From NCBI RefSeq assembly GCF_032118995.1, contig NC_092660.1:18958501-19022500 (forward strand): a stretch of DNA of 64,000 nucleotides, given 5' to 3'. The notes under the pieces were generated by a model. The model was given only the letters and a program-made list of their open reading frames with translations, ran no database searches and was not told the origin of the DNA. The translations under genes and the position numbers were made by a program. How positions within the stretch are numbered: the first letter of the stretch is position 1; each line of letters begins with the position of its first letter. The DNA is from Asterias amurensis (taxonomy: Eukaryota > Echinodermata > Asteroidea > Forcipulatida > Asteriidae). Of the stretch, positions 1-64,000 are shown one piece after another.

Positions 1-443
1 GAAGTATAACGCTGAAAGTGTTACACTGGATGTGGCTACGATGGTGTGGCCTCCGGTCGGTATTGGGTCATAGACAATACACACATATTCATCAGTATCG
101 GCCCTCTGCACATTGGTGATGGTAAAGTCCTGAACAACTGTTTGAGTATTCACACCTACTGATGTATCGAAGATGAAACGTCCATTGTTGTTATTAACAG
201 TGACTCCACCATATCTCAGGGTCCTTTCTGGGTTTTCAGTGCCCCAAACAACGATGTAATCCGACTCGAGGTTTGTAGCGGTACACCTCATATCAACCTG
301 CCCGCCCTCCTTACGATCAGCCTCTGGTGTTAAGATCTCCGCATACACTGTTGGTTGAGCATTGACAACCATCAGGAATCCGCCGCATCAAGTGAACACC
401 AAACACACACCAGCAAAACATACATCGAGATCCTTCCATCCAT
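1..443 (-). pseudogene. Gene 1: Ig receptor, N-terminal part only, frameshifted
   Basis: This is the N-terminal part of a family member, cut by the left window edge at the end of the V domain. Reading from the standard start at 443 (ATGGATGGAAGG context shared with the paralogues), one base is missing near 384 compared with every other copy (CGCCGCATC where the others have CGCCTGCATC). The signal-peptide frame then runs into a TGA after about 23 codons. Downstream of that point, the old frame still encodes a full V domain with MRC, W and DTDEYVC core residues and an FG-loop reading YDPIPTGGHTIVA. The tail class cannot be seen, but its position, strand and 5' flank match S genes 5 and 8. It is probably a pseudogene; a sequencing error or a polymorphic allele is possible. 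Confidence 0.8.
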
Positions 444-770
444 CGTATTGAATCTGAGTTTGTTAAGTTGCTATTAAATCATTTCTGGAGAAGACGGATA
501 AAGGATGAAAATGCATGAAGTAGAATGATCCCACGTTCACACACAGCTCAATGTAATAGTGATTTAATGTATGTATGTATGTATTAATGTTAACGATGAA
601 GTCGACTTGGTCTGTACTTCCTCCTGCTATAACTACGCGCCAATAAACTTCAACAATAACACAATTCATGAATTTCATTTTATCCAGACATGTTATCCAG
701 ACAGAGTTATAAAGTCACAGTTCAACCGATTCTACAACAGTTATTTGAGAACAGCCATACCGCAACTTAC
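444..770 (-). promoter_or_regulatory. 5' flank of gene 1 (S-type, long version)
   Basis: This is the upstream region of gene 1, read on the minus strand. It is closely matched at 19937-20270 (gene 5) and 35112-35450 (gene 8), and on the opposite strand upstream of the L genes. The first ~125 bases next to the start are conserved in all copies. An open frame of 71 codons lies here, but it is broken by out-of-frame indels in the paralogues, so I do not call it a gene. Confidence 0.55.
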
Positions 771-1917
771 CTAGACTTGTGGACAAGTCGTTAAATCGGC
801 CCCACGCGCTGAGATAGTGGTCTCGCGAGATCACTGCTCTCGCGCGAACTGATGGCTCCCCGATTTCATAATAATAATAAATCTTATAAAGCGCTGGTAT
901 CTAGAAAACTAATCACTGCGCTAAAATATGACCAAGGGAAAAATTAATGGTAGGCTTTACTGAAGAGGTAAGTTTTGAGATTGGATTTGAATGAAGAAAT
1001 GTCAGGTTGTGATCTAAGGGTGAGAGGCAGGTCGTTCCACAGGCGGGGGGCTGCAACCGAGAAACTTCTATCCCCATATGTTTTCAACCTGGAAGGTGGA
1101 ACGGCAAGCAAGTTGGCATTACTGGACCTTAGCTGGCGAACGGGCTTATACGGCAGGAGAAGCCTCTGCAAGTACAACGGGGATGAAGTCTCTGTCATAC
1201 AACGGTATGTTGTACAAAGGAGTTTGAAGATGATGCGTTGCTCAACAGGGAGCCAGTGTAATGCTTGAAGAACCGGGGTGATATGCTCAAACTTTTTTGA
1301 GCGTGTTAGGATACGAGCTGCAATGTTCTGACTGTCTTGTCGCTATTGAGTTGAAGTTTGTTTGCGACCATCTATTCCTTAACTTCGGCAACACACGCTT
1401 CTGTACGAGCAACTGCAGTGTTTGCGTCCGTGGAGACAAATGGCAGATATAGTTGTGCGTCATCCGCGTAAAGCTGAACGGACAGACCGTGGTTACGAGC
1501 AATGTTCGCAACAGGTGAAAAGTACAAGGAAAATAACACTGGACCGAGCACCGACCCCTGAGGGACGCCAACACGTGGTGTAGTGTTGGATGAGAAGGAC
1601 CCGTCAATTTTTACATTTTGGGTGCGATTTTCCAGATATGAAGTAAACCACTTCAAAGCAGTTCCAGTGATACCGAAATTGTAGTGAAGACGTTGAAGGA
1701 GGATTTGGTGGTCGATAGTGTCAAAAGCAGCAGAAAGGTCAAGTAACACTAAGATTACAGAGAGTTTCTTGTCAATGGCTCCAAGGATGTCATTTTGAAC
1801 ACACAGGAGCGTAGTCTCGGTGCTGTGGTGTTTACGATATGCTGACTGTGCCAGCTCAAGCAGGTTGTTAGATGTTAGGTAGTCATTGAGTTGACCAGCT
1901 ACCCCTTCGACTCCTCA
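771..1917 (-). mobile_element. 5'-truncated CR1/L2-like LINE plus flanking repeat
   Basis: Sequence absent from the otherwise matching spacers at 20270 and 35450. From about 1912 down to 867 the minus strand encodes a decayed reverse transcriptase: QSAYRKHHSTET, then DLSAAFDTIDH (motif A), GVPQGSVLGP (motif B) and YADDAQLY (catalytic motif C), followed after a frameshift by the typical C-terminal GDRSFSVAAPRLWN region. It ends in GCGCTTTATAAG plus a short ATT run near 868-880. The frames are broken (1372-1749 and 944-1198 are separate pieces), so it is inactive. Bases 771-866, with a TCTCGCGAGA dyad, look like another dispersed repeat carried along. Confidence 0.85.
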
Positions 1918-4590: not shown

Positions 4591-5898
4591 CTAATTGTTA
4601 ACGTTCTGATACTGCTTCTCAGCTGAACTCGGTGGCACTCTTACCACTTCATAGCTGGTGTTGGTGCTACGCTCTGGACGAGCGAAGTCATACTCTGGGC
4701 TGCCATTCTCTACTTCAACTGGTACTTGGTAGTACGTATGTTGTGCGGGATGTGTCTCTTGAGTCGTAGTGGGTTCCGTGTAGACGCGATTCCTGTCCTC
4801 CGTTGGCTGCAGCTCCATGTTGGGATCAGGTTGGGTGACTCGGGGTCCTTTCTCAGAGGTGGGTCTTTTTATCAGACGTTTCTTTCTGACGTCACGAAGG
4901 ATGAGAATGATGATTATGACAAAGAATGTAACAGCGAGGATTAAGACAACAATGAAAGGTACAATCCATGGAGTTGAAGATGGGGCTGCACCAGAGCTTG
5001 GGCTAGACATAGTTGAAGAGGTTGAAGTAACCTCGTTCTCTGTAGTTGGAGTAGGATTTCCAATCGATTGTTTCGTTGATCCTGCTGTAGATGATGTTGA
5101 CGTGGATGATGTTGTGGGTTCTGTCATGGGTATTGTCATAGTGTTCCTTACTGTAATTGGTCCGATTTGACATGTACGTTGCATACCAGCAAAATACATT
5201 GATGATATGAGGCATTCGAATGCAACATCATTATCAGCATCATCCACTGTCAAAACTAATGTCCTTACGACTGTATCGCTATCATCGTTGATTACTGATG
5301 TCCATGTGATGTACCTAGAAGTCTGTAGAGTGGGATTGATCGTCATTGTGACTGTTCCGTGACTGCTCTCAGATGAACACCTCGTACCTAACTCTGTCCC
5401 AGCGTCTACTGTAATGGGTCCAGCAGGAGAGCACATAGGGAAGGACGCACTGGGGAAGTATAACACTGAAAGTGTTACACTGGATGTGGCTACGATGTTG
5501 TTGCCTCCACCCTGTATTGGTTCATTGACATTACACACATATTCATCAGTATCGGCCCTCTGCACATTGGTGATGGTAAAGTCTTGAACAACTGTTTGAG
5601 TATTCACACCCGATGTAGCGAAGATGAATCGTCCATTGTTATTATTAAAAGTGAATTCACCCCATCTCAGTGTCATATTATGGTCTCGCCTACTCCATTC
5701 CACGGTATGATGATCGTACCAGAGGTTTGTAGCGGTACACCTCATATCAACCTGCCCGCCCTCCTTACGATCAGCCTCTGGTGTTAAGATCTCTGCATTC
5801 ACTGTTTGTTGAGCAGCGGCAACCATCAGGAACCCGCCTGCATCAAGTGAACACCAAACACACACCAGCAAAACATACATCGAGATCCTTCCATCCAT
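4591..5898 (-). CDS. Gene 2: S-class Ig receptor, 435 aa
   Basis: A single-exon type I membrane receptor. The signal peptide is ~1-30, the V-like domain ~35-145 (B-strand MRC, VEW, F-strand DTDEYVC), the second Ig domain ~150-255, the Ser/Thr stalk ~258-311, the helix ~312-337 and the tail after that. The CDR-like segments differ from other copies (NLWYDHHTVEW; FTFNNNNGRF; FG loop NEPIQGGGNNI). The tail is unusual for class S: the first tyrosine motif reads PNMELQ (Tyr replaced by Asn), and an extra residue changes TYYQPV to TYYQVPV, so the first ITSM-like motif is lost. TSYEVV and YQNV remain. The start is the first ATG of the conserved ATGGATGG. The gene faces gene 3 head to head across 1.9 kb. 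Signalling through SH2 proteins is inferred from the motifs only. Confidence 0.9.
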   Translation of the reverse strand: MDGRISMYVLLVCVWCSLDAGGFLMVAAAQQTVNAEILTPEADRKEGGQVDMRCTATNLWYDHHTVEWSRRDHNMTLRWGEFTFNNNNGRFIFATSGVNTQTVVQDFTITNVQRADTDEYVCNVNEPIQGGGNNIVATSSVTLSVLYFPSASFPMCSPAGPITVDAGTELGTRCSSESSHGTVTMTINPTLQTSRYITWTSVINDDSDTVVRTLVLTVDDADNDVAFECLISSMYFAGMQRTCQIGPITVRNTMTIPMTEPTTSSTSTSSTAGSTKQSIGNPTPTTENEVTSTSSTMSSPSSGAAPSSTPWIVPFIVVLILAVTFFVIIIILILRDVRKKRLIKRPTSEKGPRVTQPDPNMELQPTEDRNRVYTEPTTTQETHPAQHTYYQVPVEVENGSPEYDFARPERSTNTSYEVVRVPPSSAEKQYQNVNN

Positions 5899-13679: not shown

Positions 13680-13840
13680 TAGGTGTGGCAATGGATGTGG
13701 CAAAGGTTGTGGTAGTGGGTGTGCCAAAGGGTGTAACAATGTGTATGGCTGTGGGTGTGGCATGGGTGTGGCGGTGGGTGTGGCGGTGGGTGTGGCGGTG
13801 GGTGTGGCAATGGGTGTGGCAATGGGTGTGGCAAATGGTA
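13680..13840 (+). repeat. GTGGGTGTGGC minisatellite, one higher-order unit
   Basis: A 12-bp tandem repeat (GTGGGTGTGGCN and variants) about 160 bases long, on the 3' side of S gene 4. The equivalent place is about 160 bases long at 33185-33345 (gene 8) and about 400 bases at 53205-53607 (gene 12). It is open in several frames only because the unit length is a multiple of three. Confidence 0.85.
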
Positions 13841-17511: not shown

Positions 17512-17630
17512 TTTGGAGTTGAACAAAGAATTGACTAGAGTGGGATTCGAACCAACGACCTCCGGCACGTTAATCCGGAGGTCGTTGGTTCGAATCCCAC
17601 TCTAGTCAATTCTTTGTTCAACCCCAAAAA
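17512..17630. repeat. Near-perfect hairpin with B box on both strands
   Basis: Arms of about 50 bases surround the 9-base loop CACGTTAAT. Each arm holds GGTTCGAATCC, a pol III B box, on its own strand. The arms end in TTGAACAAAGAATTGAC and its complement. A second copy, with a few mismatches in the left arm, is at about 56813-56930. Confidence 0.8.
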
Positions 17631-24772: not shown

Positions 24773-24951
24773 TTAAATACAGAAACATATTTTAGTAAAC
24801 ATTCTTTAGAGCAGTACTGAGTGTTATTAATTTAGCTGTAATTCAAAACGAATACAATGATCACACTAGACATGCCGATTATGTAACCACTGTATACTCA
24901 ACATTTTCCCGAGTTCTGTGAACAAAATCACAGGCATATTACTCAGGTGGG

Positions 24952-25017
24952 ATTCGAACCCACAACCTTTGCAATTCTAGAGTCAGTGTCATACCAACTA
25001 GACCACCGAGATTGCCC
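24952..25017 (-). repeat. tRNA-derived SINE-like segment
   Basis: Same A-box/B-box arrangement as at 7126, in the same place relative to L gene 7. The T-stem has one changed base (TTGTGGG). Confidence 0.55.
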
Positions 25018-25620: not shown

Positions 25621-27585
25621 ATGGATGGAAGGAGCTCGATGTATGTTTTGTTGGTGTGTGTTTGGTGTTCACTTGATGCAGGCGAATTCCTGATGGTTGT
25701 CACTGCTCAACCAACAGCGTATGCAGAGATCTTAACACCAGAGGCTGACCGTGTAAAGGAGGGCGAGCAGGTTGATATGAAGTGCACCGCTACAAACCTC
25801 ACGTCGAAGCACATCGTGGAGTGGGGGACTAAGGACCCAATACAGACCCTGAGATGGGGTGAGACCACTTATCAAAACGTGAATGGGCGATTCATCTTCG
25901 TTACATCGGTAGGTGTGAATACTCAAACAGTTGTTCAAGACTTTACTATCACCAATGTGCAGAGGGCCGATACTGATGAATATGTGTGTAATGTCAATGA
26001 CCCAATACCGACCGGAGGCCACACCATCGTAGCCGAATCCAGAGTTACACTTTCAGTGTTATACTTCCCCAGTGCGTCCTTCCCTGTGTGCTCTCCTGCT
26101 GGACCCATTACAGTAGACGCTGGGACAGAGTTAGATATGAGTTGTTTTTCATTCAGAAGTCACGGAACAGTCAAAATGACGATCAATCCCACTATACAGA
26201 CTTCTAGATACACCAACTGGGCATCAGTAATCAACGATGATAGCGATACAGTCGTAAGGACATTAGATTTGACATTGGATGATGCTGATAATGGTGTTGC
26301 ATTCGAATGCTTCATATCATCAATGTATTTCGCTGGTATGCAACGTACATGTCAAATCGGACCAATTACAGTAAGGAACACTATGACAATACCCATGACA
26401 GAACCCACACCATCATCACCGTCAACATCATCTACAGCAGGATCAACGAGACCATCGATTGGAAATCCTACTCTAACCACAGAGAACGAGGTTGCTTCAA
26501 CCTCCTCCTCTGCATCTACTCAATCTACGTCCACGAGTCAGTCCAGTCCTGCCGTCATTGCCGGAGCAGTCGTAGGGGGAGTCGCTGCATTTCTTCTCCT
26601 CGTAATCCTGATCCGTATTTGCTGTAAACGACGCTCCGGCAACTCGGATCCCAAATCGGAACAGTTCAATGCAGACATCAACCAAACAAATACTGACTTG
26701 ACACTAGATAGACTTGAACAGTCTCAGATCAGTTTCAACGAGTATGGAGATCTTGACTCAATACAACATGGATTACATGATAATATCATATATGTCCCAT
26801 CCCCGAGCCCAATATCCGAACCAGCTGCGTCTTATGCTGGCACTTTGCCGGTACAAACAGCTGAGACGATTGATCCAAGTCTAATTTATGCAAAACCAAT
26901 CCGTACCAAAACTCAAAAGACTGAACGTGAACTGAAGAAGCAACAGTCGGACCCCAACGATAACCCTACAACTGATCAGAGTTACAACAATCCTGCATTT
27001 GATTCTAATGTCTCTGGTGAAACAACAGCGCCCTATTGGGACGACTCACCCACTCCCACACCGGCGGCATCGGTTAGACCAACTCAACCTAGTAAACCCA
27101 CACCCTATAAACCCAACCCGTCACAGCGTAACACATTGGGTAGGCCTAACAATGACAATCCTGTAACTGAGTCAAGTGTCTCTGATGGAACAACAACGCC
27201 CTCTGGAGTCGACTTATCCACATCCACCAAACCGATTGCATTAGTCAGACCAACTCGACCTAGTAAGCCCAGACCCTATAAGCCCAAGCCAGCAGAGCGT
27301 ATGAGTGACGCCCCGAGTACCCACAATGACCGGATGCCACCCTCTCCCCCACCCCTAACAAGCGTCAATGACGGTGCCCCTAGCCTGGAAAACACCGACG
27401 ATTCACCTTATGCCCAAACCTCCTTACCTATGAGGCAGCAGAGTAGTCATGGCAACCCAGCATCTGAGGATCACATTGTCTATGCTGATTTGGATTTGCA
27501 ATCAGACGAGATTCAAGATGGCGGACACCACCCTCAACCAGCATCTGATGAAGCAGTGCTGTATTCGAGCGTTATGATGAACTAA
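25621..27585 (+). CDS. Gene 7: L-class Ig receptor, 654 aa
   Basis: Single-exon L member with an extra residue in the first strand (EADRVKEGEQ). V domain Cys55/Trp68/Cys123; second Ig domain begins with the unusual patch SCFSFRSHG in place of RCSSESSHG, shared base for base with S gene 9. Stalk ~257-309, helix ~311-333. The tail has YGDL, YVPS, YAKP, YNNP, two proline/basic runs, YAQT, IVYADL and VLYSSV; the last two satisfy the ITIM pattern (I/V)xYxx(L/V), here 27 residues apart because of one extra Asp (SDEAV). The gene pairs tail to tail with gene 8 and head to head with broken gene 6. The start ATG at 25621 is in the conserved context. Confidence 0.92.
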   Translation: MDGRSSMYVLLVCVWCSLDAGEFLMVVTAQPTAYAEILTPEADRVKEGEQVDMKCTATNLTSKHIVEWGTKDPIQTLRWGETTYQNVNGRFIFVTSVGVNTQTVVQDFTITNVQRADTDEYVCNVNDPIPTGGHTIVAESRVTLSVLYFPSASFPVCSPAGPITVDAGTELDMSCFSFRSHGTVKMTINPTIQTSRYTNWASVINDDSDTVVRTLDLTLDDADNGVAFECFISSMYFAGMQRTCQIGPITVRNTMTIPMTEPTPSSPSTSSTAGSTRPSIGNPTLTTENEVASTSSSASTQSTSTSQSSPAVIAGAVVGGVAAFLLLVILIRICCKRRSGNSDPKSEQFNADINQTNTDLTLDRLEQSQISFNEYGDLDSIQHGLHDNIIYVPSPSPISEPAASYAGTLPVQTAETIDPSLIYAKPIRTKTQKTERELKKQQSDPNDNPTTDQSYNNPAFDSNVSGETTAPYWDDSPTPTPAASVRPTQPSKPTPYKPNPSQRNTLGRPNNDNPVTESSVSDGTTTPSGVDLSTSTKPIALVRPTRPSKPRPYKPKPAERMSDAPSTHNDRMPPSPPPLTSVNDGAPSLENTDDSPYAQTSLPMRQQSSHGNPASEDHIVYADLDLQSDEIQDGGHHPQPASDEAVLYSSVMMN

Positions 27586-29061: not shown

Positions 29062-29802
29062 TTAATCTATTTTCACGTCACACTTTTAGGTTTTGATAAA
29101 AAAAAATAAAAAATCAGGAAAAAAAATGAATAATGTCTTTGTATTTAGATTGCATCAACAGTGTAAGAACTTGCTCGACATGATGTATTTTTTAGTGAAT
29201 ATTCATTTGGAATTATGATAAATGATTATGTCTGAACCTGCTTAAGTAAATGAATAACTTAAACATCATTTCAGATTAAAAATAACAACAAGATTTTGAT
29301 TAAGATAAATGTAATTGGAAAACATGAATATGTACGTATACCTGCTTGATATTAATAAATTTTGCATTTAAAAAATTTTGTATATTAAAATTCTGCTACA
29401 GAATTATTGTATAATTTATTTTTTTTATATTAAAATACAATCGAGGACTTTGTATGAGCTAGAATACAAAATACTCTGCCAAAATACCGAACCATTTTTT
29501 TAACAGACTAGATGTTGGTTGAGGACAATGAACGGCACTTGATCAAGTTTTTTCATTCTGTATTTAAAAGGATTAATAATCAGAATTTGTGACCCTGTTG
29601 GCACCGTTGGTGGCGTGTTTGTGATTTATTGATGGGATACATCTATACCCTGAACTGAACTACCAGACATTTTCCAAACTAGTTTTGTGCTACCCTGGGC
29701 AATCTATGACGTCACAATCCTCGTTCAAATATGTGTCACACTCTGTGAGAGCGCTCAGTGAAATTTTGAATAAATTCTTTAACAAGCAATATCTCACCTA
29801 CC

Positions 29803-30873
29803 TGTTGTTTTGAACTACTCTGTGCCACAGGGGTCGGTACTCGGCCCGCAGTGGTTTACGCTGTACACTTTACCGATTCGTGACATCATCCTCAAATTTA
29901 ATCTGAATTACCATGTGTACGCAGACGACACTCAGCTATACATCACGTTTAAATCTTCTCAAGAAAACGCCAATGCATCTATTGCAAGACTTGAGAAATG
30001 CATCCAAGAGATTCGACGTTGGACACAACAAAACTTCCTGAAGTTAAATGATGATAAGACAGAGTTCCTTTTATTTGGGTCACGTCAACAGTTAACTAAG
30101 GTTTCAGTGCCATACATCTCCATCGGTGATGCTCGGATAGCTCCCTCGCTGAAAGCTCGGAACTTAGGGGTTATTTTTGATTCATCGATGACACTTCAGC
30201 CACACATCAACAATATTGTTCGTTTATCATCATATCACATCAGGAATATAGGTAAGATTCGCAAGTACTTGGACAAAAGTGCCACTGAAAAGGTCATTCA
30301 CGCATTTGTTACTTCTCGTCTTGACAACGGCAATGCTCTTCTCTACAGTCTTCCTAACAACCAGATTTCCCGACTTCAACGGCTCCAAAATACTGCTGCC
30401 CGCATTGTGACACTGTCTAGAAAATCCTGTTCTATCACCCCCATTCTGAAACAACTACACTGGCTCCCTATCTCTCAACGAATCATCTTCAAGCTGATGC
30501 TCATTGTCCACAAAGCTCTAAATGGCAAGGCTCCCCACTATATTTCTGAACTGCTTCAAGTTTACACTCCATCAAGGAATCTTCGATCAAGTTCCATGCT
30601 TCTCCTCATTGAACCCAAGTCTCGACACTCATGGGGTGACAGGTCTTTTTCTGTAGCCGCGCCACGCATCTGGAACTCTCTACCACTTAATCTTCGATCT
30701 TGTCTTTGTACCGCAAAATTCAAGTCTCTTCTCAAAACTTATCTTATGTCACAGGTTTTCAATGACTAATTTTATTGTGTCTGCTTTTCTTTGTGTTGTG
30801 TTTTTGTTTTGTTTTGTTTTGGTTTACTGCGCCTTGAACACCCAGCAGGGTGGATATGTGCGCATTACAAGTC

Positions 30874-33184: not shown

Positions 33185-33345
33185 GGCATGGGGATGGGTG
33201 TGGCAGTGGGTGTGGCAATGGATGTGACAAAGGTTGTGGTAGTGGGTGTGCCAAAGGGTGTAACAATGTGTGTGGCTGTATCATGGGTGTGGCGGGGGTG
33301 TGGCAGTGGGTGTGGCAATGGGTGTTGCAATTGGTAGCACGTATT
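33185..33345 (+). repeat. GTGGGTGTGGC minisatellite
   Basis: About 13 imperfect 12-bp units downstream of S gene 8, more diverged than the copies at 13680 and 53205. Confidence 0.8.
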
Positions 33346-38691: not shown

Positions 38692-40029
38692 CTAATTGTC
38701 GATGTTCTGGTACTGCTTCTCAGCTGAACTCTGTGGCACTCTGACCGCTTCATAGCTGGTGTTGGTGCTGCCCTCTGGACGAGCGTAGTCGTACTCTGGG
38801 CTGCCATTCTCTACTTCAACTGGTTGGTAGTAGGTATGTTGTGCGGGAATTGTCTCTTCAGTCGTAGTGGGTTCCATGTAGACGCGATTCTTGTCCTCCG
38901 TTGGCTGCAGCTCCATGTAGGGATCAGGTTGGGTGACTCGAGGTTCTTTCTCAGAGGTGAGTCTTTTTATCAGACGTTTCTGTCTGATATCACGAAGGAT
39001 GAGAATGATGATGGAGACCAAGAATATAGCAGCGAGGACTATGAACGCTACAATCCATGGAGTTGAAGATGGGGCTGAAGCAGACGAACTTAGGCTAGAC
39101 TCGGTTGTTTTCTGCTCTGGTGTTGTTGGTTTTGTCATGGTAGATGTCGCAGAGGACGTTGAAGTAACCTCGTTCTCTGTAGTTGGAGAAGGATTTCCAG
39201 TCGATGGTCTAGTTCCTGCTGTAGATGATGTTGACGTGGATGATGTTGTGGGTTCTGTCATGAGTAATGTCACGGTGTTCCTCACTGTAAATGGTCCGAT
39301 TTGACATGTACCTTGCATACCATCGAAATACATTGATGATATGACGCAGTCGAATGCAACACCATTATCAGCATCATCCACTGTCAAATCTAATGTCCTT
39401 ATGACTGTATCGCTATCATCGTTGATTACTGATATCCAGTTGGTGTATCTAGAAGTCTCTATAGTGGGATTGATCGTCATTGTGACTGTTCCGTGACTTC
39501 TGAATGAAAAACAACTCATATCTAACTCTGTCCCTGCGTCTACTGTAATGGGTCCAGCAGGAGAGCATATAGGGAAGGACGCACTGGGGAAGTATAACAC
39601 TGAAAGTGTTACACTAGATCTGGCTACGATGGTGTTGCTTCCGGTGGCTACTGGGTCGTTGACAATACACACATATTCATCAGTATCGGCCCTCTGCACA
39701 TTGATGATGGTAAAGTCTTGGAGAACGTCTTGAGACGAAGCCATGGCTACAAATGTAAGGAAGTTGAATCGTCCATTGTTATTATTAACAGTGGTTCGAC
39801 CCCATCTCAGGGTCGTGTATGGGTCCTCAGTCACCCACGCCACGATGTGATCCGACTCGAGGTTTGTAGCGGTACACCTCATATCAACCTGCCAGCCCTC
39901 CTTACGATCAGCCTCTGGTGTTAAGATCACCGCAGACACTGTTGGTTGAGCAGTGACAACCATCAGGAATCCGCCTGCATCAAATACACCAAACACACAC
40001 CAGCAAAACATACATCGAGATCCTTCCAT
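38692..40029 (-). CDS. Gene 9: S-class Ig receptor with rescued frame, 445 aa
   Basis: The open frame runs from the second ATG at 40029, not the family start at 40033. A net two-base loss in the signal-peptide region (CATCAAATACACC where others have CATCAAGTGAACACC) puts the first ATG out of frame, and the overlapping ATGGATGG supplies a new in-frame start. The new leader, MEGSRCMFCWCVFGVF, is still hydrophobic but cysteine-rich; whether it directs secretion is uncertain. The rest is a full S receptor: V domain with an altered DE region (TFVAMASSQDVLQDF), second domain with the SCFSFRSHG patch of L gene 7, the long stalk of gene 8, helix, and YMEL, YMEP, TYYQPV, YDYARP, TSYEAV and YQNI. It could be functional or an early pseudogene. 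Confidence 0.8.
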   Translation of the reverse strand: MEGSRCMFCWCVFGVFDAGGFLMVVTAQPTVSAVILTPEADRKEGWQVDMRCTATNLESDHIVAWVTEDPYTTLRWGRTTVNNNNGRFNFLTFVAMASSQDVLQDFTIINVQRADTDEYVCIVNDPVATGSNTIVARSSVTLSVLYFPSASFPICSPAGPITVDAGTELDMSCFSFRSHGTVTMTINPTIETSRYTNWISVINDDSDTVIRTLDLTVDDADNGVAFDCVISSMYFDGMQGTCQIGPFTVRNTVTLLMTEPTTSSTSTSSTAGTRPSTGNPSPTTENEVTSTSSATSTMTKPTTPEQKTTESSLSSSASAPSSTPWIVAFIVLAAIFLVSIIILILRDIRQKRLIKRLTSEKEPRVTQPDPYMELQPTEDKNRVYMEPTTTEETIPAQHTYYQPVEVENGSPEYDYARPEGSTNTSYEAVRVPQSSAEKQYQNIDN

Positions 40030-40033
40030 CCAT

Positions 40034-41826: not shown

Positions 41827-43131
41827 ATGGATGGAAGGATCTTGATGTATGTTTTGCTAGTGTGTGTTTGGTGTTCACTTGATGCAGGCGGATTCCTGAT
41901 GGTTGTCACTGCTCAAACAACAGCGCATGCGGAGATCTTAACACCAGAGGCTGATCGTAAGGAGGGCGGGCAGGTTGATATGAGGTGTACCGCTACAAAC
42001 CTCAAACCGAATCACATCGTGGAGTGGAGGACTGAGGACCCAATACAGACCCTAAGATGGGGTAATTCCACTGTTTTTAACAACAATGGACAATTCATCT
42101 TCGATACATCGGGTGTGAATACTCAAACAGTTGTTCAAGACTTTACCATCACCAATGTGCAGAGGGCCGATACTGATGAATATGTGTGTAGAGTCAATGA
42201 CCCACTATTGATCGGAGGCAACACCATCGTAGCCACATCCAGTGTAACACTTTCAGTGTTATACTTCCCCAGTGCGTCCTTCCCTATGTGCTCTCCTGCT
42301 GGACCCATTACAGTACACGCTGGGACAGAGTTAGATATGAGGTGTTCATCTGAGAGCAGTCACGGAACAGTCACAATGACGATCAATCACACTATACAGA
42401 CTTCTAGATACACCAACTGGGCATCAGTTATCAACGATGATAGCGATACAGTCTTGAGGACATTAGATTTGACAGTGGATGATGCTGATAATGGTGTTGC
42501 ATTCGACTGCTTCATATCATCCATGTATTTCGCCGGTATGGCACGTACATGTCACATCGGACCAATTACAGTGAGGAACACCTTGACCATACCCTTGACA
42601 GAACCCACAACATCATCTACGTCAACATCATCTACAGCAGGATCAACGAGACCATCGACTGGAAATCCTACTCCATCTACAGGGAACGAGGTTACTTCAA
42701 CCTCCACAACTGTGTCTAGCCCAAGCTCGTCTGATGCAGCCCCATCTTCAACTCCATGGATTGTAGCTTTCATAGTTGTCTTAGTCCTCGCTGTTACATT
42801 CTTCGTGACCAACATTATTCTCATCCTTCGTGACGTCAAACAGAAACGTCTGATAAAAAGACTTAGATCTGAGAAAGAACCCCGAGACACCCAACCCGAT
42901 CCCTACATGGAGCTGCAGCCAACGGAGGACAAGAATCGCGTCTACACGGAACCCACCACGACTGAAGAGACAATTCCAACACAACATACCTACTACCAAC
43001 CAGTTGAAGTAGAGAATGGCAGCCCAGAGTATGACTACGCTCGTCCAGAGGGTAGCACCAACACCAGCTATAAAGCGGTCAGAGTGCCACAGAGTTCAGC
43101 TGAGAAGCAGTATCAGAACATTAACAATTAG
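41827..43131 (+). CDS. Gene 10: S-class Ig receptor on plus strand, 434 aa
   Basis: The only class S gene on the plus strand. Signal peptide ~1-30, V domain Cys54/Trp67/Cys121 with FG loop NDPLLIGGNTI, second domain Cys173/Cys228 plus Cys155/Cys242, stalk ~256-309, helix 311-335. Tail Tyr360 (YMEL), 373 (YTEP), 390 (TYYQPV), 402/404 (YDYARP), 415 (TSYKAV) and 429 (YQNI). An N-glycosylation site, NHT, is created in the second domain (about residue 187). The upstream flank is of the L-gene kind and the downstream flank, to about 43928, is an inverted copy of the gene 4-5 spacer, which indicates an inversion. A possible AATAAA lies at 43456. Confidence 0.92.
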   Translation: MDGRILMYVLLVCVWCSLDAGGFLMVVTAQTTAHAEILTPEADRKEGGQVDMRCTATNLKPNHIVEWRTEDPIQTLRWGNSTVFNNNGQFIFDTSGVNTQTVVQDFTITNVQRADTDEYVCRVNDPLLIGGNTIVATSSVTLSVLYFPSASFPMCSPAGPITVHAGTELDMRCSSESSHGTVTMTINHTIQTSRYTNWASVINDDSDTVLRTLDLTVDDADNGVAFDCFISSMYFAGMARTCHIGPITVRNTLTIPLTEPTTSSTSTSSTAGSTRPSTGNPTPSTGNEVTSTSTTVSSPSSSDAAPSSTPWIVAFIVVLVLAVTFFVTNIILILRDVKQKRLIKRLRSEKEPRDTQPDPYMELQPTEDKNRVYTEPTTTEETIPTQHTYYQPVEVENGSPEYDYARPEGSTNTSYKAVRVPQSSAEKQYQNINN

Positions 43132-46581: not shown

Positions 46582-48426
46582 ATGGATGGAAGGATCTCGA
46601 TGTATGTTTTGCTGGTGTGTGTTTGGTGTTCACTTGATGCAGGCGGATTCCTGATGGTTGTCACTGCTCAACCAACAGTGTCTGCGGTGATCTTAACACC
46701 AGAGGCTGATCGTAAGGAGGGCGGGCAGGTTGATATGAGGTGTACCGCTACAAACCTCGAGTCGCATTATTTTGTTCAATGGGAAACTGAAGATCCAAAA
46801 CAGACACTGAGATGGGGTGAAAGTACTGTTTTTAGCAACAATGGACGATTCATCTTCGGTACATCGGGTGTGAATACTCAAACAGTTGTTCAAGACTTTA
46901 CCATCACCAATGTGCAGAGGTCCGATACTGATCAATATGTGTGTAATGTCAATGACCCAATGCAGGGTGGAGGCAACAACATCGTAGCCACATCCAATGT
47001 AACACTTTCAGTGTTATACTTCCCCAATGCGTCCTTCCCTATGTGCTCTCCTGCTGAACCCATTACAGTAGACGCTGGGACAGAGTTAGATATGAGGTGT
47101 TCATCTGAGAGCAGTCACGGAACAGTCACAATGACGATCAATCCCACTATACAGACTTCTAGATACACCAACTGGACATCAGTAATCAACGATGATAACG
47201 ATACAGTCGTAAGGACATTATATTTGAAAGTGGATGATGCTGACAATGGTGTTGCATTCGAATGCTTCATATCATCAATGTATTTCGCGGGTATGCAACG
47301 TACATGTAAAGTCGGACCAATTACAGTGAGGAACACCGTGACAATAAAAATAACAGAACCAACAACAACGTCCAAGACTTCGTCCAGTCCTGCCGCCATT
47401 GCCGGAGTAGTCGCTGGGGGAGTCGCTGCATTTCTTCTCCTCGTAATCCTGATCCTTTTTATTTACTGTAAACGACGCTCCGGCAACCCGGATCCCAAAT
47501 CGGAACAGTTCAATGCAGACATCAACCCAACAAATACTGACTTGATACTAGATAGACTTGAGCAGTCTCAGGTCAGTTTCAACGAGTATGGAGGTCTTGA
47601 CTCAATACAACATGGATTACAGGATAACATCATATATGTCCCATCCCCGAGCCCAATATCCGGACCAGGTGAGTCTTATGCTGGCCCTTTGCCGATACAA
47701 ACAGCTGAGACGATTGATCCAAGTCTAATTTATGCAAAACCAATCCGTACCAAAACTCAAAAGACTGAACGTGAATTGAAGAAGCAACAGTCAGACCCCA
47801 ACGATAACCCTACAACTGATCAGAGTTACAACAATCCTGCATTTGATTTTAATGTCTCTGGTGAAACAACAGCGCCATATTGGGACGACTCACCCACTCC
47901 CACACCGGCGGCATCGGTTAGACCAACTCGACCTATTAAACCCACACCCTATAAACCCAATCCGTCACAGCGTAACACATTGGGTAGGCCTAACAATGAC
48001 AATCCTGTAATTGAGTCAAGTGTCTCTGATGGAACAACAACGCCCTCTGGAGTCGACTTATCCACATCCATCAAACCGATTGCATTAGTCAGACCAACTC
48101 GACCTAGTAAACCCAGACCCTATAAGCCCAAGCCACGAGAGCGTAGGAGTGACACCCCGAGTACCCACAATGACCAGATCGTACCTTCTTCCCCACCCCC
48201 AACAAGCGTCAATGACGGTACCCCTAGCCTGGAAAACACCGACGAATCTCATTATGCCCAAGCCTCCATAACAATGAGGCAGCAGAATAGTCATGGCAAC
48301 CCAGCATCTGAGGATCACATTGTCTATGCTGATTTGGATCTGCAATCAGATGAGATTCAAGATGGCGGACACCACCCTCACCCAGCATCTGAAGCAGTGC
48401 TGTACTCGAGTGTAATGATGAACTAA
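46582..48426 (+). CDS. Gene 11: L-class Ig receptor, very short stalk, 614 aa
   Basis: Single-exon L member whose stalk is cut to about 12 residues (TEPTTTSKTSSS, ~258-269), against about 50 in genes 3, 7 and 14; this accounts for the shorter protein. The V domain is of the S kind (STVFSNNGRFIFGTSGVNTQ), unlike the other L genes, and the FG loop NDPMQGGGNNI resembles S gene 2. Second Ig domain normal; helix ~270-297 ending LFIYCKRR. The tail has YGGL, YVPS, YAKP, YNNP, proline/basic runs, HYAQ, IVYADL and VLYSSV. A shorter stalk would hold the Ig domains closer to the membrane. It pairs tail to tail with broken gene 12. Confidence 0.92.
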   Translation: MDGRISMYVLLVCVWCSLDAGGFLMVVTAQPTVSAVILTPEADRKEGGQVDMRCTATNLESHYFVQWETEDPKQTLRWGESTVFSNNGRFIFGTSGVNTQTVVQDFTITNVQRSDTDQYVCNVNDPMQGGGNNIVATSNVTLSVLYFPNASFPMCSPAEPITVDAGTELDMRCSSESSHGTVTMTINPTIQTSRYTNWTSVINDDNDTVVRTLYLKVDDADNGVAFECFISSMYFAGMQRTCKVGPITVRNTVTIKITEPTTTSKTSSSPAAIAGVVAGGVAAFLLLVILILFIYCKRRSGNPDPKSEQFNADINPTNTDLILDRLEQSQVSFNEYGGLDSIQHGLQDNIIYVPSPSPISGPGESYAGPLPIQTAETIDPSLIYAKPIRTKTQKTERELKKQQSDPNDNPTTDQSYNNPAFDFNVSGETTAPYWDDSPTPTPAASVRPTRPIKPTPYKPNPSQRNTLGRPNNDNPVIESSVSDGTTTPSGVDLSTSIKPIALVRPTRPSKPRPYKPKPRERRSDTPSTHNDQIVPSSPPPTSVNDGTPSLENTDESHYAQASITMRQQNSHGNPASEDHIVYADLDLQSDEIQDGGHHPHPASEAVLYSSVMMN

Positions 48427-53204: not shown

Positions 53205-53607
53205 AGGTGTGGCAATGGGTGTGGCAAAGGTTGTGGTATGTGGGTGTGCCAAAGGGTGTAACAATGTGTATGGCCGTGGGTGTGGCCGTGGGTGTGGCGG
53301 TGGGTGTGGCCGTGGGTGTGGCGGTGGGTGTGGCAATGGGTGTGGCAATGGGTGTGGCAAAGGTTGTGGTAGTGGGTGTGCCAAAGGGTGTAACAATGTG
53401 TATGGCCGTGGGTGTGGCCGTGGGTGTGGCGGTGGGTGTGGCCGTGGGTGTGGCGGTGGGTGTGGCAATGGGTGTGGCAATGGGTGTGGCAAAGGTTGTG
53501 GTAGTGGGTGTGCCAAAGGGTGTAACAATGTGTATGGCCGTGGGTGTGGCATGGGTGTGGCGGTGGGTGTGGCAATGGGTGTGGCAATGGGTGTGGCAAA
53601 TGGTAGC
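53205..53607 (+). repeat. Expanded minisatellite with 132-bp higher-order repeat
   Basis: The 12-bp GTGGGTGTGGC unit is organised in a 132-bp period (11 units): TGGGTGTGCCAAAGGGTGTA begins at 53241, 53373 and 53505. The duplicate locus at 13680 has a single higher-order unit. Because 132 is divisible by three, frames stay open on both strands. Confidence 0.88.
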
Positions 53608-57817: not shown

Positions 57818-58083
57818 TTAATGAGTTTTTGTATTTTGAGTTTTTTGTATACTTAATTTGGGTACGTTTTTACTTACATAATTAAAGTGTCTATGTATTT
57901 CATAATAATATCAAAGGAGGAGGAGGTTACCACAAATGTTAATGCTTTCGCAGAAATAAGTGTTATTTAAACACCACGTTGTGTAAAATAGTGATTTTTA
58001 TTTTTTCATCTTTATGTGACAACACCCACGGTGTAAATTTTAACACCCAGTCTTTGCAATGTAGGCCTATGGTACTCATGTGT

Positions 58084-59313
58084 CTAATTGTTAATGTTCT
58101 GATACTGCTTCTCAGCTGAACTCTGTGGCACTCTGACCGCTTCATAGCTGGTGTTGGTGCTACCCTTTGGACGAGCGTAGTCGTACTCTGGGCTGCCATT
58201 CTCTACTTCAACTGGTTGGAAGTAGGTATCTTCTGTGGGATTTGTCTCTTCAGTCGTAGTGGGTTCCATGTAGACGCGATTCTTATCCTCCGTTGGCTGC
58301 AGCTCCATGTAGGGATCAGCTTGGGTGACTCGAGGTTCTTTCTCAGAGGTGAGTCTTTTTATCAGACGGTTCTTTCTGATATCACGAAGGACGAGAATGA
58401 CGATGATGACGAAAAATGTAATAGCAAAAATAATGGCTATTAACGCTAGAATCCATGGAGTGGAAGATGGAGTTGGTATAGTGCTGGTAATTCCATTGTT
58501 TTGTGACGTCATACTTTCGGATGTTGTTATCTGCTCCACCGTCATGGGTATTGTCATTGTGTTCCTAACTGTTATTGGGCCGATTTGACAAGGACGTTGC
58601 ATAGTAGTGAAGTACATTGATGCGATGACGCAATCGAATGCAACACCATTGTCAGCATCATCCACTGTCAAATCTAATGTCCTTACGACTGTATCGTTAT
58701 CATCGTTGATTACTGATGTCCAGTTAGTGTATCTAGAAATCTGTATAGTGGGATTGATCGTCATTGTGACTGTTCCGTGACTGCTCTCAGATGAACACCT
58801 CATATCTAACTCTGTCCCAGCGTCTACTGTAATGGGTCCAGCAGGAGAGCACATAGGGAAGGACGCACTGGGAAAGTATAACACTGAAAGTGTTACACTG
58901 GATGTGGCTACGATGTCGTTGCCTCCGGTCGGTATTGGTTCATTGGCATTACACACATATTCATTAGTATCGGCCCTCTGTACATTGGTGATGGTAAAGT
59001 CTTGAACTGTTTGAGTATTCACACCTACCGATGTATCGAAGATGAATCGTCCATTCACGTTTTGATAAGTGGTCTCACCCCATCTTAGGATCAATACTGG
59101 GTCCTCAGTCCTCCATGCCACGATATGATGCGACTCGAGGTTTATAGCGGTACACCTCATATCAACCTGCCCGCCGTCCTTACGATCAGCCTCTGGTGTT
59201 AAGATCTCCGCAAACACTGTTGGTTGAGCAGTGACAACCATCAGGAATCCACCTGCATCAAGTGAACACCAAACACACACCAGCAAAACATACATCGAGA
59301 TCCTTCCATCCAT
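58084..59313 (-). CDS. Gene 13: S-class Ig receptor, short stalk, 409 aa
   Basis: Closest relative of gene 5: same short stalk (TVEQITTSESMTSQNNG) and ILALIAIIFAITFF helix. V domain with ETTYQNVNGRFIF and one residue fewer in TQTVQDF; FG loop NEPIPTGGNDI. The tail has YMEL, YMEP, then TYFQPV, where Phe replaces the second Tyr so the first ITSM-like site is lost; YDYARP, TSYEAV and YQNI remain. The 3' flank is that of gene 5 but the 5' flank is of the kind next to L genes (as genes 2, 6 and 9), so a second S gene seems to have been lost by recombination. It faces L gene 14. Conserved start at 59313. Confidence 0.92.
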   Translation of the reverse strand: MDGRISMYVLLVCVWCSLDAGGFLMVVTAQPTVFAEILTPEADRKDGGQVDMRCTAINLESHHIVAWRTEDPVLILRWGETTYQNVNGRFIFDTSVGVNTQTVQDFTITNVQRADTNEYVCNANEPIPTGGNDIVATSSVTLSVLYFPSASFPMCSPAGPITVDAGTELDMRCSSESSHGTVTMTINPTIQISRYTNWTSVINDDNDTVVRTLDLTVDDADNGVAFDCVIASMYFTTMQRPCQIGPITVRNTMTIPMTVEQITTSESMTSQNNGITSTIPTPSSTPWILALIAIIFAITFFVIIVILVLRDIRKNRLIKRLTSEKEPRVTQADPYMELQPTEDKNRVYMEPTTTEETNPTEDTYFQPVEVENGSPEYDYARPKGSTNTSYEAVRVPQSSAEKQYQNINN

Positions 59314-60271: not shown

Positions 60272-60544
60272 TTAAAATATTTTAATAAACATTCTTCAGA
60301 GCAGTATGGTTGTTATTAATTTAGCTGTCATTCAAAACGAACACAATAATCACACTATATAGACAGGGATATTAGATAGAGGGCGCACTCTGCCGCTGTG
60401 TCAACGTTACGATATGTGCCACACATATAAAACTGCTAGAAAATTTGGGTAGGGGGAAATTTGCATCAGAAGCAAATCACAATAATGCCACAATGTCATG
60501 ATGCGGTCGAATTGACTCAATGGTGAACCAAATGACCTAAATGA

Positions 60545-60995
60545 CAAATTCAAAATGACGCCGCCAGACTTGCCACAGGTTCATCCATGTTCTGCCACAT
60601 GAAACCTATCCTAACGTCAACTGAACTGGCTACCCATCAGGTCCCGGATTGAATACAAAGTTCTCCTTCTCACCTTCAAATGCATCCACGGTCTAGCTCC
60701 TCCCTACCTATCTGAACTTATAACCATCGCGCAACCATCCCGCTACTCCCTTCGCTCCTCTCAAGGCATCACGCTGAACCACCCATCTCCCAAGATGCTA
60801 CCCACACTTGGTGATAGAGCCTTCACTACTGCCGCTCCCAAACTGTGGAATAAACTCCCAATATCTATTCGTTATCAACAATCTGTCAATATGTTCAAAA
60901 CACTTCTAAAAACTCACCTGTTCTGTTAACAACATCTCGTGATGTCAAGCGCATTTGAACATGGTTATGGAAAATGCGCTATATGTTATTGATAT
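60545..60995 (+). mobile_element. 3' end of a CR1/L2-like LINE
   Basis: The plus strand encodes the usual C-terminal end: NWLPIRSRIEYKVLLLTFKC, then LAPPYLSELI, GDRAFTTAAPKLWN and LLKTHLFC, stop. It interrupts a sequence that is continuous near 45603. A different lineage from the LINEs at 771 and 29803 (its 3' end is GAAAATGCGCTATATG). Confidence 0.8.
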
Positions 60996-61776
60996 TATTT
61001 GTACATAGTGTAATTGAAGACATAAACACTACATTGTTTGCTTGAGGGCCTACTGTGGGAAAACCTTCACGTTGCTCACTTCCATTAACTGAAATGAAAG
61101 GGAAACGTTAACTGCTTTTCTTTCTGTTGGCGAACTATACTTCTAATCTGCATAAAGGTACAAGATTCTTTGCTATTATTATTAAACATTGAAGGATACC
61201 ATTCATTTTGGTATTACCCATAATATACACAGATTGTGTAACCACTGTATACTCAGTACTTTCCCGGGTTCTGTGAACAAAATCACAGGCGAGAAACCGA
61301 CACACCGAGAAAACATTATTATCCTTTTCGAATAAATCTCCTTTGTCGTATACTCTCACTGTGTTGACGTCTCTTCAGTTGTTTCTTTCCGCCATTAGAT
61401 TTATTTAACCAATAAGAAGTTGCAATCAGTCGGTTTGTGGTCGTGCCAAGGTTCTGCAGTATTTCAATGGTATGGTTGTTCATAAATAACTGTTCTATAT
61501 TCAGTTGAACTGTGACGTTATAATCCCTTTTGTCAAACATGACTGGATAAAATGAAATTCATGAATTGTGTTATTGTTGAAGTTTATTGGCGCGTAGTGC
61601 TCAGTAAGAGGAAGTACAAGTTAAGTCGACTTCATCGTTAAATACATGTACATTAAATCCCTATTACATTGAGCTGTGTGTGAACGTGGGATCATTCTAC
61701 TTCATGCATTTCCATCCTTTATCCATCTTCTCCATGAATGATTTAATAGCAACTTAATAAACGCAGATTCAATACG

Positions 61777-63726
61777 ATGGATGGAAGGATCTCGATGTAT
61801 GTTTTGCTGGTGTGTGTTTGGTGTTCACTTGATGCAGGCGGATTCCTGATGGTTGTCACTGCTGAACCAACAGCGTATGCGGAGATCTTAACACCAGAGG
61901 CTGATCGTAAAGAGGGCGGGCAGGTTAAAATGAGATGTACCGCTACAAACCTCGTCTCGGATCATATCGTGGAGTGGAGGACTGAGGAACAGACACTGAG
62001 ATGGGGTGAGACCACTTATCAAACCGTAAATGGACGATTCATCTTCGTTACATCGGTAGGTGTGAATACTCAAACAGTTGTTCAAGACTTTACCATCACC
62101 AATGTGCAGAGGGCCGATACTAATGAATATGTGTGTAGAGTCAATTACCAAATAGCCACCGGAGGCAGCACCATCGTAGCCTCATCCAGTGTAACACTTT
62201 CAGTGTTATACTTCCCCAATGCGTCCTTCCCTATGTGCTCTCCTGCTGGACCCATTACAGTAGACGCTGGGACAGAGTTAGATAAGAGTTGTTCATCTGA
62301 GAGCAGTCACGGAACAGTCACAATGACGATCAATCCCACTATACAGACTTCTAGATACACCAACTGGATATCAGTAATCAACGATGATAGCGATACAGTC
62401 TCCAGGACATTAGAATTGACAGTGGATGATGCTGACAATGGTGTTGCATTCGATTGCTTCATATCATCAATGTACTTCGATGGTATGCAACGTACATGTC
62501 ACATCGGACCAATTACAGTGAGGAACACCTTGACAATACCCATGACAGAACCCACAACAGCATCTACGTCAACACCATCTACAGCAGGATCAGCGAGACC
62601 ATCGACTGGAAATCCTACTCCATCTACAGAGAACGAGGTTACTTCAACCTACTCCTCTGCATCTACTCAATCTACGTCCACGCCTTCGTCCAGTCCTGCC
62701 GCCATTGCCGGAGCAGTCGCCGGGGGAGTCGCTGTATTTATTCTCCTCGTAATCCTGATCCTTATTTGCTGCAAACGATGCTCCGGCAACTCGGATCCCA
62801 AATCGGAACAGTTCAATGAAGACATCAACCAAACAAATACTGACTTGACACTAGATAGACTTGAGCAGTCTCAGGTCAGTTTTAACGAGTATGGAGATCT
62901 TGACTCAATACAGTATGGATTACAGGATAATATCATATATGTCCCATCCCGGAGCCCAATATCCGGACCAGGTGAGTCTTACGCTGGCACTTTGGCGGTA
63001 CAAACAGCTGAGACGATTGATCCAAGTCTAATTTATGCAAAACCAATCCGTACCAAAACTCAAAAGACTGAACGTGAATTGAAGAAGCAACAGTCAGACC
63101 CCAACGATAACCCTACAACTGATCAGAGTTACAACAATCCTGCATTTGATTCTAATGTCTCTGGTGGAACAACAGCGCCCTATTGGGACGACTCACCCAC
63201 TCCCACACCGGCGGCATCGGTTAGACCAACTCGACCTAGTAAACCCACACCCTATAATCCCGACCCGTCACAGCGTAACCCATTGGGTACCCGTAATGAC
63301 AATCCTGTGATTGAGTCAAGTGTCTCTGATGGAACAACATCGCCCTCTGGAGTCGACTTATTCACATCCACCAAACCGATTGCATTAGTCAGACCAACTC
63401 GACCTAGTAAGCCCAGACCCTATAAGCCCAAGCCAGCAGAGCGTACGAGTGACACCCCGAGTACCCACAACGACCGGATGCCACCCTCTCCCCCACCCCT
63501 AACAAGCGTCAATGACGGTGCCCCTAGCCTGGAAAACACCGACGATTCTCCTTATGCCCAAGACTCCGTACCCATGAGACAGCAGAGTAGTCATGGCAAC
63601 CCAGCATCTGAGGATCACATTGTCTATGCTGATTTGGATTTGCAATCAGACGAGATTCAAGATGGCGGACACCACCCTCAACCAGCATCTGAAGCAGTGC
63701 TGTACTCGAGTGTAATGATGAACTAA
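61777..63726 (+). CDS. Gene 14: L-class Ig receptor, 649 aa
   Basis: Single-exon L member. The V domain is shortened in the C-C' loop (EWRTEEQTLRW, two or three residues fewer than others) and has FG loop NYQIATGGSTI. Second domain as usual (DKSCSSES); stalk ~255-306; helix ~309-331 (AVFILLVILILICC). The tail has YGDL, YVPS, YAKP, YNNP, proline/basic runs with small local changes (YNPDPSQRNPLGTRN), YAQD, IVYADL and VLYSSV. Conserved start ATGGATGG at 61777. Head to head with gene 13; the next gene downstream is outside the window. Confidence 0.92.
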   Translation: MDGRISMYVLLVCVWCSLDAGGFLMVVTAEPTAYAEILTPEADRKEGGQVKMRCTATNLVSDHIVEWRTEEQTLRWGETTYQTVNGRFIFVTSVGVNTQTVVQDFTITNVQRADTNEYVCRVNYQIATGGSTIVASSSVTLSVLYFPNASFPMCSPAGPITVDAGTELDKSCSSESSHGTVTMTINPTIQTSRYTNWISVINDDSDTVSRTLELTVDDADNGVAFDCFISSMYFDGMQRTCHIGPITVRNTLTIPMTEPTTASTSTPSTAGSARPSTGNPTPSTENEVTSTYSSASTQSTSTPSSSPAAIAGAVAGGVAVFILLVILILICCKRCSGNSDPKSEQFNEDINQTNTDLTLDRLEQSQVSFNEYGDLDSIQYGLQDNIIYVPSRSPISGPGESYAGTLAVQTAETIDPSLIYAKPIRTKTQKTERELKKQQSDPNDNPTTDQSYNNPAFDSNVSGGTTAPYWDDSPTPTPAASVRPTRPSKPTPYNPDPSQRNPLGTRNDNPVIESSVSDGTTSPSGVDLFTSTKPIALVRPTRPSKPRPYKPKPAERTSDTPSTHNDRMPPSPPPLTSVNDGAPSLENTDDSPYAQDSVPMRQQSSHGNPASEDHIVYADLDLQSDEIQDGGHHPQPASEAVLYSSVMMN

Positions 63727-64000
63727 CATTGATGTTTTTGATAGGTATCATAGGATGAGAAAGACGCTGCCCTTCTCCTTGTCACCTGGGCCCAATTTCA
63801 TAGAGCTGCTAAGAACAACAAAATTGCTTAGCATGAAATTTCTTCCTTGAATAAAACAGGACTACCAACCAAGTTTCTACCTGTTGCATATTGCTTGTTA
63901 CTGGTATTCAGCTGTTGTTTGCTTATCCTGAAAATCACATGGAAATTTGGTTGGTAATCCTGTTTGTATCAAGGAAGAAATGTCATGCTTAGCAAATGTT
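63727..64000. mobile_element. 3' flank of gene 14 with MITE family D (cut by window)
   Basis: MITE D begins at about 63785 (CCTGGGCCCAATTTCATAG) and runs off the window; the preceding ~58 bases are the short L-gene 3' flank. Confidence 0.7.

Follow-up and report, generated by a model that had tools for sequence, protein, structure and literature searches.

Why does a short stretch of starfish DNA hold many similar immunoglobulin (Ig) receptor genes that end in two different kinds of cytoplasmic tail? We analysed a window of 64,000 nucleotides, corresponding to C13:18958501-19022500 of the 491.5 Mb Asterias amurensis genome, together with related genes elsewhere in that genome.

Gene content of the locus

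A tblastn search with one ectodomain as query matched 14 places in the window, in agreement with a preliminary description that had counted at least 14 Ig-receptor loci. The division by tail given there was also recovered: the L-tail search finds four matches in the window and the S-tail search nine, including one split into three segments. The first gene had been listed as a probable S gene, and an S tail is indeed present just beyond the window start, at C13:18957743-18958126. The loci are as follows.

1..443, minus strand: g01 (S type), V part, truncated by the window start; broken
4591..5898, minus strand: g02S, intact V-C2 receptor with S tail, 435 aa
7793..9751, plus strand: g03L, intact V-C2 receptor with L tail, 652 aa
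14623..15939, minus strand: g04S, intact, S tail, 438 aa
18704..19936, minus strand: g05S, intact, S tail, 410 aa
22834..23717, minus strand: g06S, V-only, without C2, S-like tail; broken by at least two frame changes
25621..27585, plus strand: g07L, intact, L tail, 654 aa
33774..35111, minus strand: g08S, intact, S tail, 445 aa
38692..40033, minus strand: g09S, S tail, frame change in the signal peptide; 445 aa open from the ATG at 40029
41827..43131, plus strand: g10S, intact, S tail, 434 aa; upstream DNA as in the L genes (chimera)
46582..48426, plus strand: g11L, intact, L tail, short stalk, 614 aa
54393..55686, minus strand: g12S, ectodomain intact; broken by two frame changes, in the transmembrane segment and the tail
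58084..59313, minus strand: g13S, intact, S tail, 409 aa
61777..63726, plus strand: g14L, intact, L tail, 649 aa

Ten loci run cleanly from ATG to stop, one has a shifted start (g09) and three are broken (g01, g06 and g12). The earlier figure of 14 V-C2 receptors is correct as a number of loci, but not all of them are intact and g06 lacks the C2 domain. In g01 the reading frame shifts within the signal peptide and close to the border of V and C2. The signal-peptide shift of g09 could be avoided by starting at another ATG, which lies in the alternative frame.

The genes had further been described as single-exon. Everything from signal peptide to tail does lie in one frame; the statement is limited to the coding region, and an intron in the 5' UTR is possible. 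A pyrimidine-rich CAG upstream of the ATG was considered as a splice acceptor and dropped, being absent from several of 13 copies. A single splice-variable gene with both tails was ruled out: each window gene has one tail, with no second tail adjoining.

Domain organisation

The receptors are built from a signal peptide, two Ig domains (the first of V type, the second with an additional pair of cysteines), an S/T-rich stalk, a transmembrane segment and the tail. Five window frames, four intact and the partial g06, were scanned against Pfam: 'ig' passed the cut-off in three of them and V-set in none, the intact four reaching 19-25.9 bits against a threshold of 26. V-set did pass in two of five relatives from outside the window. 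The second Ig domain of the window genes was best matched by C2-set_2, at 17.1 bits (cut-off 21). V cysteines 25 and 92 are invariant in 22 of 22 sequences. A structure model of the V-C2 part had a mean pLDDT of 44, and its fold matches were nanobodies mixed with other beta-sandwich proteins; SIRP alpha chains occur among the weak PDB matches of g07. Three V-only relatives of g06 lie elsewhere on C13, in frames of 417, 488 and 517 aa.

Signalling tails

At the end of the L tails stand two ITIM-type motifs separated by 26-27 residues. By motif match only, this pair is present in all nine complete L genes of C13 and C10, and strict in eight. ITIM pairs by themselves are weak evidence, because shuffled tails reach two ITIMs in 647 (g14L) and 398 (L032) of 20,000 trials. 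The S tails contain ITSM, YxxP and YxN motifs, with TxYxxV in 26 of 26. Tyrosine columns are better conserved than the others in both classes: 0.66 against 0.36 in S (20/20000 permutations) and 0.46 against 0.22 in L (32/20000), over 12 S and nine L rows picked by hand. Tail dN/dS values of 0.48-0.66 indicate fairly fast evolution, and a PDB search with the L and S tail ends gave no match up to E 10.

The claim of two tails holds within the window, but greater variety appears among 24 relatives read from other clusters, some of whose tails have an ITAM and some no motif at all. Two ITIM-type sites stand at the tail end in three of six L relatives, the second one being lost or altered in L029, L030 and L033. 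An ITAM is found in three relatives on C18 (L040-L042). An SHP-like gene, in which a pair of SH2 domains precedes PTP exons on the same strand, lies at C18:13.904-13.918 Mb.

We propose that these genes form a germline paired-receptor system of the starfish, written in single coding exons, in which SHP-type inhibition by L would be set against adaptor or activating signalling by S; we give this reading a probability of roughly 60%. Every gene would produce a type I membrane protein from one coding exon. The ITIM-type pair of L tails would recruit an SHP-type tandem-SH2 phosphatase, leading to inhibition. The ITSM-type, YxxP and YxN sites of S tails would recruit SH2 adaptors for an activating or engulfment output, with neither a charged transmembrane segment nor a partner chain. 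The least secure part of the mechanism is the S output. We infer from sequence that the proteins reach the cell surface and are phosphorylated, and likewise their cell type, their ligand and whether each tail activates or inhibits.

Alternatively, both tails could be inhibitory or mixed scaffolds, S being a second phosphatase- or adaptor-binding tail, with no activating partner in the window. With no canonical ITAM among the 35 C13/C10 genes, and with phosphatases as possible further partners of ITSM sites, S is not bound to act against L. The ITSM-type sites of all 26 S tails fit such a scheme, as does the absence of ITAM and charged transmembrane segments among the C13/C10 types. It sits poorly with the ITAM-bearing relatives L040-L042 and with the YxxP and YxN motifs kept in S, motifs that a tail dedicated to phosphatases would not be expected to have. 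We regard it as unlikely.

Exchange between ectodomains and tails

Ectodomains are not sorted by tail class, in the window trees or in other clusters. A single clade of L ectodomains is rejected by the AU test for upstream DNA (p 0.003), V (p 0.007) and C2 (p 0.002). On the family tree, the L label by itself clusters no better than expected at random (values as low as observed in 110 of 500 shuffles); 52 rows were kept, g04 and C13:18872004 being excluded since the script's end pattern missed them, and the tree was built on 38 of the 52. Sister ectodomains with different tails occur in other clusters, namely L029/L034 (support 100/99) and L032/L036 (100/100), whose tails were identified by homology to window tails. 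The sister pairs L031/L051 and L044/ITAM depend on tail labels assigned by eye from length and motifs (L030, L031, L033 and L044 as L; L039 and L046 as S), with a long-branch warning at L044. These six are absent from the tail-search matches, and their labels also entered the comparison of tyrosine columns. Within the window, g10 is an L/S chimera that combines L-only upstream DNA with an S-only tail. A PHI-like test for recombination gave 0/1000. The paired-receptor architecture suggested at the outset, with similar ectodomains and two tail classes with conserved tyrosines, is borne out in the window and in clusters on other chromosomes.

Variation on the V domain

Column entropy is highest in C'', CC', FG, C'C'' and C, that is, on one face of V. 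For this face pN/pS is 0.66 (0.45-0.95). Only the nine-codon FG loop, chosen after sliding windows pointed there, exceeds 1, with a pN/pS of 1.92 (1.14-8.26). Simple positive selection does not account for the diversity of the V face. Entropy, pN/pS and the PHI-like test were all computed on 31 of the 35 complete genes, four near-identical rows of a duplicated block being dropped.

Under the proposed paired-receptor system, the C-C'-C''-FG side of V would bind ligand and would owe its diversity to point mutations and to sequence exchange among the copies. Recombination within a cluster would keep L and S ectodomains alike, so that both tail classes would see similar ligands.

The same proteins might serve general adhesion or developmental cell recognition, in the manner of nectin, JAM or Dpr/DIP, with tyrosine scaffolds that are neither immune nor opposed. 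A PDB search with the family profile returned the adhesion molecules CEACAM, DSCAM, DIP and JAML alongside antibodies, and YxxP-rich tails, with up to 18 sites in the relative L052, would fit cytoskeletal adaptors. The large copy number, clustering, broken copies, two tail classes on interchangeable ectodomains and V-face variation are nevertheless better explained by recognition under diversifying pressure; we consider the adhesion reading unlikely.

The family across the genome

At least 150 matches, corresponding to at least 145 loci, are spread over 13 contigs. At least 120 loci have an open frame of at least 380 aa, two of which contain an internal stop. These counts are lower bounds, with 150 of 183 candidates scored and the duplicated block counted twice; a few of the matches are weak (E up to 1e-4). 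The preliminary description had named a collapsed assembly of one or two genes as a possible refutation. This is not one collapsed gene, because ectodomains 24-55% identical to that of g10 occupy open frames on other contigs.

A histocompatibility-type locus could also be envisaged, in which V binds allelic partners, itself or other copies and the L and S tails set acceptance or rejection. Starfish reject allogeneic cells, according to the accessible part of PMC9763293, and the receptor genes are clustered, recombining and variable on one V face. Some 145 loci over 13 contigs are broad for one allorecognition locus, and the same part of PMC9763293 names no receptor gene; we consider this quite unlikely. 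That assembly or duplication errors account for most of the array, or that it is a silent set of retro-copies, is scarcely credible: a block of about 17 kb that carries four S genes is present twice outside the window (C13:18.866-18.883 and 19.028-19.045 Mb, 11 mismatches; either a recent duplication or an assembly duplicate), a second receptor cluster lies right at the beginning of C10, some copies are broken and coding regions lack introns, but the 24-55% identical relatives retain tail tyrosines as well as open frames, and copies have upstream DNA in common (up to 1.5 kb in some pairs), unlike scattered retro-copies.

The paired-receptor cluster may have an immune or allorecognition role, and the array is a candidate for starfish recognition of microbes or foreign cells. 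More tentatively, and as a possibility rather than a probability, echinoderms may have a paired-receptor immunity of their own: well over 100 V-C2 receptors without coding introns, bearing ITIM, ITSM/YxxP or ITAM tails in cis, diversified by recombination and serving self/non-self or microbe recognition by coelomocytes. An 'Ig kappa' gene has reportedly been claimed in A. rubens. Against an immune role counts a paper on A. rubens coelomocyte surface proteins, in whose main text, as far as accessible, neither 'immunoglobulin' nor 'Ig-like' appears (PMC13409769). No description of a starfish V-C2 receptor family was found among the top-ranked literature matches, where subscription papers are thinly covered. 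The window and its relatives provide concrete candidate genes for graft rejection and coelomocyte allorecognition in starfish.

Comparison with known systems

Vertebrate KIR, LILR, SIRP and FcR genes devote about one exon to each Ig domain, an arrangement absent from the window genes. SIRP alpha and beta resemble the starfish receptors in their V-type N-terminal domain and in the tandem ITIMs of the tail. They have three Ig domains and multi-exon genes. Their tail ends may closely resemble those of starfish L; the PDB search with the L tail end gave no SIRP or other match. Among invertebrates, Hydractinia Alr genes reportedly encode clustered Ig-like membrane receptors with tail tyrosine motifs; they are said to be multi-exon cnidarian genes with genetically demonstrated allorecognition.

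Amphioxus VCBPs are likewise invertebrate germline V-domain genes of immune type and of genomic complexity, but in the available part of PMC2632668 they carry two V domains and one for chitin binding, an architecture other than that of V-C2 receptors with a signalling tail. Sea urchin SpTransformer (Sp185/333) is, according to its abstracts, an echinoderm immune family that is clustered and recombining; it differs in its small two-exon genes with repeats, and the abstracts describe no Ig-receptor or signalling-tail architecture.

Mammalian CEACAMs, with the ITIM of CEACAM1 and ITAM-like relatives, are also clustered and fast-changing and carry motifs in the receptor's own tail; the V ligand domains of inhibitory and ITAM-type members are kept alike by gene conversion and recombination (PMC2832619, accessible part). 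Unlike in the starfish, their signalling motifs are split by introns (same source). Within the comparison made, no CEACAM-starfish orthology was found beyond shared Ig folds. Xenopus FcR-like (XFL) and mammalian FcR/KIR genes form large lineage-specific families that combine similar ectodomains with two kinds of transmembrane segment and tail, but they are multi-exon and their activating members pair with an FcR gamma chain (PMC2413239, in the portion available). None of the 27 starfish transmembrane segments scored has a K, R, D or E. The contrast first drawn with multi-exon vertebrate paired receptors stands, XFL genes being multi-exon (same portion) and starfish coding regions unsplit. The paired Ig receptors in the literature found are vertebrate. 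If our reading is true, a genome-wide starfish version that encodes each receptor entirely within a single coding exon would mean that the paired-receptor design either arose independently or predates vertebrates.

A large receptor family with single coding exons

At least 14 Ig-receptor loci had been claimed for this DNA, and the window indeed holds 14 ectodomain matches, with nine loci matching the S tail and four the L tail; gene 1, described earlier as a probable S type, has its S tail just beyond the window start. Ten of the 14 reading frames are clean, one has a shifted start and three are broken. Upstream of the ATG, a conserved stretch of 174 columns averages 83% column identity across 13 aligned window loci (the V-only locus g06 was left out), with A at position -3 in all 13. 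The following features are interspersed with the receptors:

Other features of the window (window coordinates)
1372-1914, minus strand: LINE-like reverse-transcriptase fragment (Pfam RVT_1, E 2.9e-20)
29783-30769, plus strand: LINE-like reverse-transcriptase fragment (Pfam RVT_1, E 2.6e-13)
53206-53599: minisatellite of 12-base units, 132-base higher-order repeat x3, 97% matches
13682-13834 and 33194-33335: similar 12-base arrays near S genes
17531-17608 and 24939-25012, both minus strand: tRNA-like matches, one ARAGORN (Val) and one Rfam, not coinciding

We searched the genome (491,506,623 bases, 23 contigs) with the ectodomain of the S gene g10. It matches at least 150 places, merging into at least 145 loci on 13 contigs and at least 11 clusters of three or more loci; these are lower bounds, as 150 of 183 candidates were scored. 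A frame of at least 380 aa is open in at least 120 loci, two of which have an internal stop. Full reading of 215 kb of C13, the contig on which the window spans 18958501-19022500, and 30 kb of contig C10 gave 35 complete single-frame receptors (26 S, 9 L). In the contig orientations as stored, all nine L genes lie on the plus strand and 20/26 S genes on the minus strand. A further 24 relatives were read from other places.

The second cluster, of at least 11 loci, occupies the extreme start of its contig (C10:1-56 kb) and may be subtelomeric, or else a misplaced piece. On C13, a block of about 17 kb that contains four S genes occurs twice (18865981-18882981 and 19028-19045 kb); the copies differ by 11 mismatches, well under the heterozygosity of 0.96% that PMC11090083 gives for another individual; recent duplication, conversion and assembly duplicate are the alternatives.

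The source organism is Asterias amurensis with high confidence. In COX1 of the mitochondrial contig (16,427 bp), the invariant TNHKDIG needs AAA read as Asn, and AGA/AGG codons are Ser. ND1 and ND2, named by eye, are opposite in orientation to COX1, which we take to be the starfish arrangement.

Tyrosine motifs of the tails

The L tail, of about 315 residues, is proline-rich and ends in two ITIM-type sites, whose tyrosines are spaced by 26 or 27 in all nine complete C13/C10 L genes; g03 is exceptional in having Thr at -2 of the first site. Since shuffling the g14L tail produces such a pair in 647/20000 cases from composition alone, it is conservation that supports L: divergent L rows retain the first tyrosine in 6/6 and the second in 5/6.

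The S tail is about 100 residues long. Among 26 complete S genes it carries YMEL/YTEL (23), VYxEP (22), TYxQ (26), YxYARP/YxFARP (25), TxYxxV (26) and YxN[IV] (22). Two ITSM sites arise by chance in 36/20000 shuffles of g10S.

Other relatives vary the theme. Tandem YxxP-bearing modules form the tails of three genes without a C2 domain (C13:18864191, 19051564 and 19054905) and of the V-C2 genes L051 and L052, the latter two with 12 and 18 YxxP sites. A trio on contig C18 (L040-L042) contains YMELNPPEQKPAVYS[KE]L, an ITAM under a 6-12 spacing rule and expected by chance in 82-109/20000 shuffles; with a spacer of nine, it exceeds the 6-8 range of PMC2832619 by one. None of the 27 transmembrane segments scored has a charged residue (K, R, D, E), and that of L042 has two His.

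Exchange between ectodomains and tails

The L genes do not form a single lineage: monophyly is rejected for upstream DNA (14 rows, AU p 0.003), V (14 rows, 0.007) and C2 (12 rows, 0.002), and a protein tree of 38 family members likewise rejects a single L clade (p 0.0003). Among 31 genes, one supported upstream-DNA class (100/100) unites 9/9 L genes with four S genes. The g10 locus is an L/S chimera: from -1200 to about -600 it matches L genes only (0.87-0.99; S at most 0.24), its ectodomain is similar to both classes, from about +900 it matches S genes only (0.78-0.97; L at most 0.17), and its 3' flank is weakly S-like. Across the ectodomains of 31 genes, all four gametes occur at 33% of site pairs, and none of 1000 permutations reached the observed PHI-like statistic.

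Five positions (C25, C92, C126, C213 and P217) are invariant in 22 aligned ectodomains, of which C126 and C213 would give the second domain an additional cysteine pair. By eye, L045 and L048 have an apparent additional Ig-like stretch within the same open frame.

In 31 cluster genes, columns are more variable in V than in C2 (mean entropy 0.59 versus 0.35 bits). Within V, entropy peaks in C'' (1.44), CC' (1.28), FG (1.15), C'C'' (1.01) and C (0.98), and AB, EF, B and E are the least variable (0.16-0.27); the strand limits are approximate and were taken from a model whose pLDDT averages 44 (mostly 45-71 in the V blocks). As for selection, pN/pS exceeds 1 in the FG loop alone (nine codons; 1.92, CI 1.14-8.26). 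Synonymous divergence is maximal in BC-C''D (pS 0.37 versus 0.07 for the remaining V), which points to old, separately kept sequence types amid homogenised flanks and away from simple positive selection.

A candidate signalling partner and comparison with paired receptors

C18 has a pair of SH2 domains encoded by three exons (13903699-13906002) and, after them on the same strand, protein-tyrosine-phosphatase exons (13916232-13917620); from this domain order, the locus would be an SHP-type gene. Many phosphatase exons also lie on C13 outside the window (around 0.4-2.2, 3.7-5, 15-18 and 19.6 Mb, among the matches listed). Of the predicted signalling, L inhibition through an SHP-type phosphatase is the best supported part and S output the weakest.

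The likeness to vertebrate paired receptors proposed in the preliminary description holds for anatomy. We keep the starfish genes outside the vertebrate families because their coding region is one exon and orthology is not demonstrated. The anatomy of the array is that of paired receptors, with common recognition parts, differing tyrosine-based tails and exchange between them; judged by it, the starfish receptors would work like a paired-receptor system.
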